Shown here: piece by piece, positions 20-3,351 of the stretch
Position numbering within the stretch: position 1 is the stretch's first letter
Layout of the letters: every line of letters begins with the position of its first letter
From: Ignavibacterium sp.
Lineage (GTDB): Bacteria; Bacteroidota; Ignavibacteria; Ignavibacteriales; Ignavibacteriaceae
Assembly (NCBI GenBank): GCA_032027145.1
Contig: JAVSMP010000001.1
Span: forward strand, 1,950,903 to 2,014,902
DNA length: 64,000 bases
Direction: 5' to 3'
Translations under genes and position numbers: made by a program
The notes under the pieces: model-generated
The model's input: the letters and a program-made list of their open reading frames with translations, nothing else
What the model was told of the DNA's origin: nothing
Database searches by the model: none

Positions 20-292
20 ATGAAAATTAAACCATTAGATGATCGTATTTTACTTGAACCACTGCCAACAGAAGAAAAAACTTCATCAGGATTAATAATT
101 CCAGACACTGCGAAAGAAAAGCCTCGTGTTGGTTTGGTTATCTCCATCGGAACAGATGAAGACCTTAAAGAAAAGATCAAAGAAGGCGATAAAGTTCTAT
201 TTGCTAAATACGGTGGTGATGAGATTGAAATGAACGGTAAAGAATACAGAATTTTACAAAGATCAGATATTCTTGCAGTAATTGAAGATTAA
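20..292 (+). CDS. groS: GroES co-chaperonin
   Basis: The 90-residue length and sequence match GroES (Cpn10), the heptameric cytosolic lid that closes the GroEL folding chamber. Visible hallmarks are the N-terminal KPLDDRILLEP strand, the mobile loop (about residues 17-33, with SGLIIPDTAKEKP) that contacts GroEL, and the C-terminal DILAVIED. An AAAGGGA ribosome site lies 5 nt before the ATG. No groEL follows: the next gene, 14 nt downstream, is a thioredoxin. GroES normally precedes groEL in bacteria, so either groEL lies elsewhere or this is an extra groS copy. Family assignment is very secure. Confidence 0.97.
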   Translation: MKIKPLDDRILLEPLPTEEKTSSGLIIPDTAKEKPRVGLVISIGTDEDLKEKIKEGDKVLFAKYGGDEIEMNGKEYRILQRSDILAVIED

Positions 293-306
293 AAAAAGGA
301 TATAAA

Positions 307-651
307 ATGTTAAATACAAATCTTACTCATATTACATCTGAATCTGAGCATTCAGAATTATTAAGCAACAATGAAAATGTGATGATATGCTGCGGCAGAA
401 TGGGCCCGATGTGCATACCTGTTTACGAAGTTATGGAAGAGCTGGAAGAAGAATATAAGAATATAAAATTTGCTGATATGGAATTTGATTCACCTGATGC
501 AAAGGTAATAAGAAATTTACCTGAAACCAGGGGTTTTCAGGGATTGCCGTTTACAATTTATTATAAGAATGGAAAAGTTGTAAAAGCAACAAGCAGTATT
601 CAGTCTAAAGATCAGATTACAGATATTCTGGATGAACATTTTGGAAAGTAA
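307..651 (+). CDS. Atypical thioredoxin-fold protein with C-X6-C active site
   Basis: This 114-residue protein has the length and pattern of a thioredoxin, including a GLPFT segment (residues 79-83) at the place of the conserved cis-proline loop (P81). The usual WCGPC redox motif is absent. Instead there is CCGRMGPMC, with Cys28, Cys29 and Cys36, so the likely redox pair is spaced C-X6-C. The gene sits 156 nt before a thioredoxin reductase, which points to a dedicated electron-transfer pair. It lacks a signal peptide, so it is cytosolic. The fold and partnership are inferred; the substrate is unknown. Confidence 0.8.
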   Translation: MLNTNLTHITSESEHSELLSNNENVMICCGRMGPMCIPVYEVMEELEEEYKNIKFADMEFDSPDAKVIRNLPETRGFQGLPFTIYYKNGKVVKATSSIQSKDQITDILDEHFGK

Positions 652-807: not shown

Positions 808-1761
808 ATGGAAAATCATTTTGATGCAATAATAATCGGTGCTGGTGCCGCTGGTTTAACTGCAGGGATTTATCTTTCAAGAGCAAAGATGAATACTTTG
901 ATTTTGAATGAAGGAGCTGTCGGCGGACAGATGGTTCTTACACACGAGATAGCAAACTATCCGGGTGTTGAAAATGTAAGCGGATATACTCTTGCAAGAA
1001 CGATGAAAACACAAGCACAAAAATTCGGATGTATGATTAAATCAAATATTAAGATTACTTCTCTTGAACTTAATAGTAGATTAAAAAGAGTAGTTGTTAA
1101 CAATAAAGATGTTTATACTTCTAATGCGGTTATTATTGCAACAGGTGGTAAATCAAGAATGATTGGTGCAATAGGTGAAGAAGATTTTAAAGGTAAAGGG
1201 ATTTCTTATTGTGCTACCTGCGATGGTGATTTTTTTCAAGATAAAGAAATAATAGTTGTCGGAGGCGGAAACTCTGCTTTGGAAGAAGCAGTTTCATTAA
1301 CCAAATATGCATCTAAAGTTACTATTGTCCATCAATTTGATCACTTTCAGGCTTTGGATCATTATGTTGAAGAAGCAAAAAGAAATGATAAGATCAATTT
1401 TATAATAGAATCAAAGATTGTTGAATTTGTTGGAAATGAAAAACTTGAGAGAGTAAAGATCCAAAATCAAAGAACTAATGAAACAAGTGAATTAAAAATT
1501 GATGGAGTATTTGTATTTATCGGATATGTTCCAAATACGGAATTATTACAAGGGAAAATTGAACTTAATACTTGGAATGAAATAATTGTTGATAATAATA
1601 TGAAGACTAATATTCAAGGTGTGTATGCCGCTGGTGATTCAATTCAAAAAAAATACAGACAAGTAACTACTGCAGTTGCCGATGGAACAATTGCCGCACT
1701 GAGTGCCTCCGAGTATATCAATAATATTAAAAAAGAAATGGCTGAATATGAACTTGCTTAG
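808..1761 (+). CDS. trxB: Thioredoxin reductase-like flavoprotein
   Basis: This 317-residue FAD protein has the layout of low-molecular-weight thioredoxin reductase. The FAD-binding IIIGAGAAGLTAG lies at residues 8-20, the redox pair CATC is Cys135/Cys138, the second dinucleotide fold is GGGNSALEEA at about 152-161, and a C-terminal GVYAAGDS motif binds FAD. The NADPH-specificity motif, normally HRRxxxR, reads HQFDHFQA (His175-Gln176-Phe177), so NADPH may not be the donor; NADH or ferredoxin are possibilities. It probably reduces the unusual thioredoxin encoded just upstream. A weak AGAGA ribosome site precedes the ATG. Confidence 0.9.
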   Translation: MENHFDAIIIGAGAAGLTAGIYLSRAKMNTLILNEGAVGGQMVLTHEIANYPGVENVSGYTLARTMKTQAQKFGCMIKSNIKITSLELNSRLKRVVVNNKDVYTSNAVIIATGGKSRMIGAIGEEDFKGKGISYCATCDGDFFQDKEIIVVGGGNSALEEAVSLTKYASKVTIVHQFDHFQALDHYVEEAKRNDKINFIIESKIVEFVGNEKLERVKIQNQRTNETSELKIDGVFVFIGYVPNTELLQGKIELNTWNEIIVDNNMKTNIQGVYAAGDSIQKKYRQVTTAVADGTIAALSASEYINNIKKEMAEYELA

Positions 1762-2463: not shown

Positions 2464-3006
2464 ATGAATAATAGAGTTTATAATAATGGAATTGAAAGAT
2501 TAAGGTCACCCGAAAGAATTGAGCGCTTAGAAGTAGAAAGAGTTGTGGAGCTTTGTCTAGATCATAAAAAAATAAATTCTGTTTTAGATATAGGAACAGG
2601 CAGCGGTTTATTTGCTGAGGGATTTTATAAACTTAACAAAAAAGTTACTGGGATTGATATTAATCCCGAAATGTTAACTGCCGCAAAAGTTCATTTACCT
2701 GATGTAGAATTTAGAATTGCACATGCAGAAGAACTTCCTTTTGATGATAACACTTTTGACTTAGTTTTTATGGGAGTGATTTTTCACGAGGTTGATGATT
2801 ATATCAAAGCTTTGCAGGAATCTAAAAGAGTTGCTGTCCGGCAGGTTTCTATTTTAGAATATAAATATATCGTTGAAGAATCCGGACCACCGATTGAGCA
2901 TAGATTAAAAGAAGAATTTCTCAAACAGCTTTCTGAAGAAGCAGGGTTTTCACAAATTCAAATTATACCATTGAAGAATCTTGTACTATATCATTTTATT
3001 AAGTAA
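2464..3006 (+). CDS. Class I SAM-dependent methyltransferase
   Basis: This 180-residue methyltransferase resembles the UbiE/Methyltransf_11 group. Motif I is VLDIGTGSGLFAEG (about residues 41-54), motif II VTGIDINPEML, and the later ELPFDDNTFDLVFMG corresponds to motifs III/IV. It has an AAAGGA ribosome site before the ATG. It follows another small methyltransferase by 62 nt but the two are not close copies. The substrate is unknown. The tRNA-Arg gene lies downstream on the same strand. Confidence 0.8.
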   Translation: MNNRVYNNGIERLRSPERIERLEVERVVELCLDHKKINSVLDIGTGSGLFAEGFYKLNKKVTGIDINPEMLTAAKVHLPDVEFRIAHAEELPFDDNTFDLVFMGVIFHEVDDYIKALQESKRVAVRQVSILEYKYIVEESGPPIEHRLKEEFLKQLSEEAGFSQIQIIPLKNLVLYHFIK

Positions 3007-3123: not shown

Positions 3124-3197
3124 GCGCCCGTAGTTCAACTGGATAGAATGTTGGATTCCGGTTCCAAAGGTTGCAGGTTCAAATCCTGCCGGGCGTA
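3124..3197 (+). tRNA. tRNA-Arg (anticodon CCG)
   Basis: A full cloverleaf folds by hand: acceptor GCGCCCG with CGGGCGT (including a G1-U72 wobble), D stem GTTC/GAAT, anticodon stem TTGGA/TCCAA with loop TTCCGGT, and T stem GCAGG/CCTGC with loop TTCAAAT. The anticodon at 3158-3160 is CCG, reading the CGG arginine codon. The discriminator base is A, and CCA is not encoded (the next bases are CAT). It sits alone in the 410-nt gap between genes. Confidence 0.96.
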
Positions 3198-3351
3198 CAT
3201 TTTAATAATTAAGAATCAGAGATTTATAATAAATGCGGTTTTTCATTCGTGTGCAGAAAAGGGTATTTTGATTATATAAAAGACTCTTGCTTTTATGTGA
3301 ATGACATTAATTATGAGATTCAATTTTTAATAAACTACTAATAATAACCCC

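Follow-up and report, generated by a model that had tools for sequence, protein, structure and literature searches.

Gene content of the locus

We identified, close to the start of the window (the whole stretch of 64,000 nucleotides of Ignavibacterium sp. DNA that was analysed), a gene for a thioredoxin-like (Trx-like) protein, directly followed by a gene for a flavoprotein resembling thioredoxin reductase (TrxB). The features at this end of the window are the following.

20..292, plus strand: GroES (Cpn10) gene just upstream of the Trx-like gene (PF00166; cluster 3 in the neighbour table)
307..651, plus strand: protein of predicted Trx fold with the site CCGRMGPMCIPV (C28, C29, C36; P38; putative cis-Pro P81), based on the ORF, a model and structure comparison
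388..414, plus strand: codons of C28-C36 (CCGRMGPMC), based on sequence and conservation
808..1761, plus strand: partner TrxB-like flavoprotein (CATCDGDFF; HQFDHFQ for HRRDGFR; GGGNSA kept), based on TIGR01292, motifs, synteny and co-occurrence
1775-2401 and 2464-3006: two ORFs of SAM-methyltransferase type after trxB, belonging to clusters of 5 and 4 members in the 80 loci described below plus the window
3124-3198: tRNA-Arg (CCG)

The ORF at 307-651 is complete, with an ATG at 307 and a stop codon ending at 651, and encodes 114 amino acids (hereafter the window protein). Its active-site region is NVMICCGRMGPMCIPVYE, with C28, C29 and C36 (ICCGRMGPMC). There is not a single Trp in the protein and no pair of cysteines three positions apart, so the CXXC (WCGPC) motif of TrxA is absent; the first-pass annotation had described a non-canonical CCGRMGPMC site with these three cysteines and without Trp, which is what the ORF encodes. 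A GLPF loop occupies residues 79-82 and was taken in that annotation for the cis-Pro loop. This agrees with the alignments, in which P81 falls on Pro76 of E. coli (GIP76) and is invariant (A2 and A3), as would be expected of a TrxA-type cis-Pro.

Six copies of the Trx-like gene from the same genus gave dN/dS values of 0.03-0.12 in 15 of 15 pairs; the gene is therefore real and under selection, and a chance ORF at 307-651 is excluded by these values together with the conservation of the protein. Plasmid and phage collections contained zero matches to the gene, and 24 stretches on viral contigs fit the search pattern, none of which codes for a relative; a mobile or viral origin was rejected for lack of any such relative. 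Ordinary WCGPC thioredoxins (L043 and L044) and a second TrxB (L056) are also encoded in the same genome, so that the Trx-like/TrxB system is additional to them.

Family distribution and cysteine conservation

A scan of GTDB genomes found at least 581 relatives of the window protein, from which 80 loci were retained, mostly from Ignavibacteria, Calditrichota and Bacteroidales records. Twenty further Bacteroidales stretches were read, comprising lower-scoring matches and three reported with stops; the in-frame stops reported in these three fall at the C-terminal end. All fetched loci together gave 164 matches at E 1e-12, or 136 distinct sequences over the model columns, a set skewed to close relatives. 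CGRMGPMC is identical in 80/80 retained loci, so that C29 and C36 are present in all of them; residue 28 is Cys (64 loci) or Ile (16 loci). Within the 136 distinct members, GRMGPMC was kept in 133, C36 in 134, C29 in 131 and C28 in 105. Judging from these counts, C36 and its loop appear to be the core of the site; C29, though usual, can be replaced, and C28 is optional. No close homologues already shown to be ordinary thioredoxins were found.

C29 is replaced in five of the 136 members, by Ala in L177, L183, L187 and L188 and by Leu in L176, with GRMGPMC kept in all five; L177 is devoid of C28 as well. None of them is left with C36 as its sole cysteine: C74 is present in all five, C28 in four and C43 in L177. 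Each of their genomes has a partner TrxB, adjoining in four and elsewhere in the genome of L176 (G623), where it is a partial match with 63% identity (L190). This weakens the idea of an obligatory C29-C36 pair, as it had been put forward at first, and the 105/136 count for C28 likewise weakens three cysteines as a trait of the protein. The presence of both C29 and C36 in all 80 nearest members would fit the reading as a stretched thioredoxin site, with an obligatory pair of C29 (for Cys32) and C36 (for Cys35) and with C28 as an alternative third cysteine, but the replacement of C29 in 5/136 and of C28 in 31/136 members speaks against it.

These replacements also bear on what we regard as the main rival to a C36 thiol resolved by C29, namely that C36 acts strictly alone, either as a persulfide or linked in a mixed disulfide to a small thiol of bacillithiol type, both of which TrxB would cleave directly, with C28 and C29 being structural or auxiliary. 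Consistent with this, C36 and its loop are the most constant elements, C29 and C28 can both be lost, a partner TrxB is encoded in the genomes of all five C29-less members, some members of the family have OsmC-like genes next to them, and the bacillithiol gene bshC occurs in 56/59 relatives. However, bshC is near universal at this frequency, hence its co-occurrence is uninformative as a test for bacillithiol; all five C29-less members keep another cysteine, and the retention of C29 in 131/136 fits a real C29-C36 pair. A strictly single-thiol mechanism seems to us unlikely. As a separate observation, C28 is found in 76 of the 77 members with C74 (Fisher 1e-12), which perhaps reflects a second pair or the history of one clade; residue 74 of the window protein is Thr.

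In a sample of the phylum, matches occurred in 44/395 genomes, at 45 listed places comprising 20 relatives with at least 66% identity, one remnant (in G038, see below) and 24 matches at 22-34%. With identities of at least 66% on one side and at most 34% on the other, the G038 remnant aside, the family appears sharply bounded within this sample. Further counts were 1/244 genomes in the class of G322, 7/40 in the phylum of G571 and 85/295 in the order of G572, 81 of the latter at E 1e-28 or better; 47 of the 88 places in that order were read (30 loci and 20 stretches, three of them shared). The class of G572 gave matches in 6/395 genomes, strong in G572 alone, which fits badly with the figure for the order, and for this reason we draw no frequency for the family.

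Fold and family assignment

A structure model of the window protein, for which 77 of the 80 retained loci were used besides the window (78 sequences), reached a pLDDT of 94.4 and a pTM of 0.88 and has a thioredoxin fold. Structure comparison returned thioredoxins at Z 14.3-15.8 and rmsd 1.7-2.3 among the 50 matches listed, and Foldseek placed thioredoxins at a TM of about 0.75 against the model. The thioredoxin fold that the first-pass annotation had claimed is thus borne out by the model. Profile searches placed the window protein below the thioredoxin cut-offs, both for PF00085 (Pfam Thioredoxin; 20.5 bits versus 23.5) and, by far, for TIGR01068 (NCBIfam thioredoxin; 23.7 bits versus 96.8). 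Among 32 chosen members, Pfam at E 1e-3 found PF00085 in three (best 5.7e-5, about at the cut-off) and DUF6568 in one, and NCBIfam assigned TIGR01068 to four, NF047697 to twelve, NF006898 to two and cysE to one. An identity as bacilliredoxin was rejected, as Pfam at E 1e-3 gave no such match for the window protein.

The partner TrxB and neighbouring genes

A TrxB-like gene lies directly downstream of the Trx-like gene and on the same strand in 75/80 loci, 71 counted from the neighbour table and four (L086, L095, L107, L118) recognised on visual inspection, the small gene having escaped the ORF picker there; the loci without an adjoining TrxB are L078, L101, L104, L106 and L131. The partner specificity that had been expected to depart from that of ordinary thioredoxin is probable, since the Trx-like protein has its own TrxB. 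The TrxB of the window scores above the TIGR01292 cut-off (351.6 versus 343.45 bits) and has the CATC site. At the HRRxxxR site, which contacts the 2'-phosphate of NADPH, it reads HQFDHFQ, so the NADPH-type motif is absent. Among 76 partner TrxBs (window included), two of which are cut off before the site, HRRxxxR was found in 0/74 readable sequences and H[Q/E]FDHFQ in 59. CATCDGDFF is present in 72/76; at the two sites the second TrxB of the genome reads HRRDEFR and CATCDGFFF. The pyrophosphate motif GGGNSA occurs in nearly all partner TrxB rows compared, GKG or GRG is kept in 67/76, and one F of FF is usually D. The window TrxB follows this pattern, with FKGKG present and CATCDGDFF keeping one F of the two. 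A tree was built from every other partner TrxB, of which 36 were left after filtering by length (L190 dropped out at this step too), and rooted on E. coli; in it the partner TrxBs form one clade without other TrxBs (support 0.85).

PMC5627308 describes HRRDxxR as the motif for the 2'-phosphate of NADPH, DvTR3, which is without it, as preferring NADH, and TRi, which is independent of NAD(P)H, as having a degenerate pyrophosphate motif. By analogy, the partner TrxB likely uses NADH; we say no more than likely because ferredoxin-fed and F420-fed TRs are, according to the same paper, without the HRR motif too.

Genes for GroES and glutaredoxin (clusters 3 and 5) recur near the Trx-like/TrxB module in other Ignavibacteria, and a Crp-type regulator gene (cluster 2; PF13545 and PF00027 in its L107 copy) lies one or two genes upstream in 16/77 rows of the neighbour table. 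Some Bacteroidales members are found near genes for OsmC-like and NifX-like (PF02579) proteins and for a membrane-anchored ordinary thioredoxin. These neighbours suggest stress or sulphur handling and no single target.

Co-occurrence, joint loss and loop relaxation

Out of 59 related genomes, 23 carry the Trx-like gene, one of them (G038) as a remnant. A partner TrxB with at least 59% identity was detected in 21/22 relatives with a full-length Trx-like gene and in 0/36 without it, where the best TrxB reached 44% identity (Fisher 6.6e-15 with G038 left out, a value that ignores the relatedness of the genomes). The exception is G013, which has a full Trx-like gene without partner TrxB; G046 (8% contamination) and G047 have two copies of both genes. 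In G038 the Trx-like protein is preserved up to residue 32, after which a deletion leads into a TrxB remnant (residues 198-311). This joint remnant (L023:1500-1600; G038:C25:34575-35032) represents a natural joint loss of both genes.

The loop is broken in three members, L170 (CGSMNQAC), L171 (CGRMDPES) and L172 (CGRMGVQS), and in their genomes the best TrxB is 42-45% identical, so that the partner is absent. An intact GRMGPMC without a TrxB of at least 59% identity was found in seven genomes of unstated completeness (G647, G744, G869, G870, G871, G872 and G873), which makes the pairing less than absolute; G870 and G013 give identical matches and are probably one assembly. Retention of the loop is thus favoured by the partner TrxB without strictly depending on it. 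In five genomes without the partner, the best-scoring reductase is a Trx-TrxB fusion (L191-L195) whose domain order equals the order of the two genes. These Trx(CPPC)-TrxB fusions, from Ignavibacteria and Bacteroidales genomes, are about 425-440 amino acids long, with the Trx domain first, and are without HRRxxxR.

An adaptor or regulatory subunit that docks on TrxB without redox function, its cysteines not cycling or binding a metal or cluster, would account for the absence of CXXC and for the strict conservation of the whole GRMGPMC loop, as for a docking surface, and NifX-like genes beside some members could be read in the same way. C36, however, was lost in only 2/136 members, both from genomes without a partner TrxB, and we consider this the least probable of the explanations discussed here.

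Active-site register

The sequence by itself leaves the register of the cysteines ambiguous. The five alignments listed and the 3hhv profile alignment place C36 on Cys35 of E. coli, leaving the first Cys without a Cys partner, whereas the 1m7t alignment (best profile match) and MAFFT at 3/3 settings place C36 on Cys32, the nucleophile, and P38 on Pro34. HHalign put C29 on Cys32 in 4/6 runs, two of which also had C36 on Cys35. As a reference we used an ordinary thioredoxin (L093, WCMPC with C64 and C67) modelled in the same way. The window protein is modelled with a strand at 24-30, a loop at 31-36, helix 2 at 37-47 and the next strand at 54-59, and L093 with a strand at 54-60, a loop at 61-64, helix 2 at 65-80 and the next strand at 86-91. 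Compared with L093, the window protein thus has a loop longer by two residues and a helix 2 shorter by five, and its two strands start 30 residues apart versus 32 in L093. The last residue ahead of helix 2 is C36 in the window protein and the first Cys, C64, in L093, and C29 is located inside the strand, away from the start of helix 2. All 78 rows of alignment A2 have P38 and V39. Since C36 directly precedes helix 2 like C64 and C29 lies within the strand, the models favour a register in which MC[I/V]PV replaces WCGPC, with the nucleophile kept as C36 and the second Cys replaced by V39, which we consider likely but not certain.

The 3hhv profile alignment and the five alignments listed are what would be expected if C36 corresponded to the resolving Cys35 and the nucleophile had been lost, its position being taken by Gly or Met, with C29 near Trp28 or Phe27 perhaps acting as nucleophile. 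Helix 2 of the model begins after C36 and not before it, and all three MAFFT runs disagree, which makes this register very improbable. The stretched site with its obligatory C29-C36 pair finds its exact register in two of the six HHalign runs, and two more put C29 on Cys32; against it, the models have C29 in a strand instead of at a helix start and a strand-to-strand distance that is two residues shorter than in L093. This explanation appears quite improbable as well. The first-pass annotation had read the site as a CXXC stretched by four extra residues. The count of four agrees with the two HHalign runs in exact register, is opposed by the shorter strand-to-strand distance in the model and is not settled. 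As to the stretching, the assignment of C29 to Cys32 in four of the six runs speaks for it, and the model, with only C36 at the helix start, against it.

Thioredoxin- and glutaredoxin-fold proteins with one active-site cysteine (CXXS, CGFS) keep the nucleophilic Cys and have lost the second. If the MC[I/V]PV register is right, the window protein would resemble these, differing in the Val at the second position, the GRMGPM loop and the dedicated TrxB.

Comparison with known systems

The window protein shares with TrxA (PF00085, TIGR01068) its modelled fold, its length, the putative cis-Pro loop and the neighbouring TrxB, and differs in having no CXXC and in scoring below the Pfam and NCBIfam cut-offs. 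Similarly, the Trx-TrxB fusions (L191-L195) share domain order and the lack of HRRxxxR with the two-gene system but are fused and have an ordinary CPPC site in the Trx domain. Dedicated Trx/TrxB pairs with odd sites are already known (PMC10880999 and PMC5627308). One of these is DvTR3/DvTrx3 of Desulfovibrio vulgaris, where an anaerobe likewise has a second TR without the HRR motif. DvTR3 is described there as NADH-preferring and strict for its own non-canonical thioredoxin DvTrx3, which we liken to the window protein by description only (PMC5627308). According to the same source, DvTR3 has neither the GR/KG nor the FF docking residues, in contrast to the GKG or GRG kept in most partner TrxBs. 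The other is TrxA3/TrxB3 of Clostridia, likewise a pair with an atypical site that is proposed to be dedicated; TrxA3 retains a CXXC ([G/S]C[V/E]PC), with glycine reductase as its proposed client (PMC10880999), whereas the window protein has no CXXC. The CX6C of the PDI-type domains of ERp57 and ERp90 shares only its spacing with the window protein; according to PMC3040216 it is a structural disulfide between the loop after b3 and helix a3, off the active site. A literature search for the motif found no paper with it among those within its reach, outside of which lay most subscription papers. What sets the window protein apart is the CXXC-less site with a GRMGPM loop that is tied to its own TrxB.

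Proposed function and implications

We propose a dedicated two-gene system of thioredoxin type, in which TrxB reduces a Trx-like protein centred on C36, with C29 perhaps being the resolving cysteine; in our estimation this has about an even chance of being correct. The adjacent TrxB-like flavoenzyme, probably fed by NADH, would reduce the Trx-like protein, which would in turn hand electrons on to a target. C36 ahead of helix 2 would hold the position of the nucleophilic Cys of WCGPC, P38 that of its Pro, and V39 would stand in for the second Cys. C29, located where the preceding strand ends, would be the most likely substitute for the resolving Cys in the window protein and could form a disulfide with C36, while in some relatives this role may be otherwise filled or missing. 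More tentatively, and with distinctly more doubt than confidence, the pair may represent a distinct class of thioredoxin systems in anaerobic Bacteroidota and relatives, with a CXXC-less carrier working through C36 and the GRMGPM loop, a co-evolved NADH-linked TrxB and a target pool separate from that of the ordinary thioredoxins beside it.

The usual view of thioredoxin reductases is that they act on a CXXC disulfide. The widespread family described here has no CXXC, yet retains the thioredoxin fold and an apparently dedicated reductase, which cautions against annotating such genes as ordinary thioredoxins. If the pair works as proposed, it would be another way to build a thioredoxin site and would raise the question of which disulfide the reductase attacks; it would also point to a separate thiol circuit in many anaerobes. 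Across many anaerobic bacteria the Trx-like protein and its own reductase are passed on as a pair, which may represent a form of a basic redox system that has not been described before.
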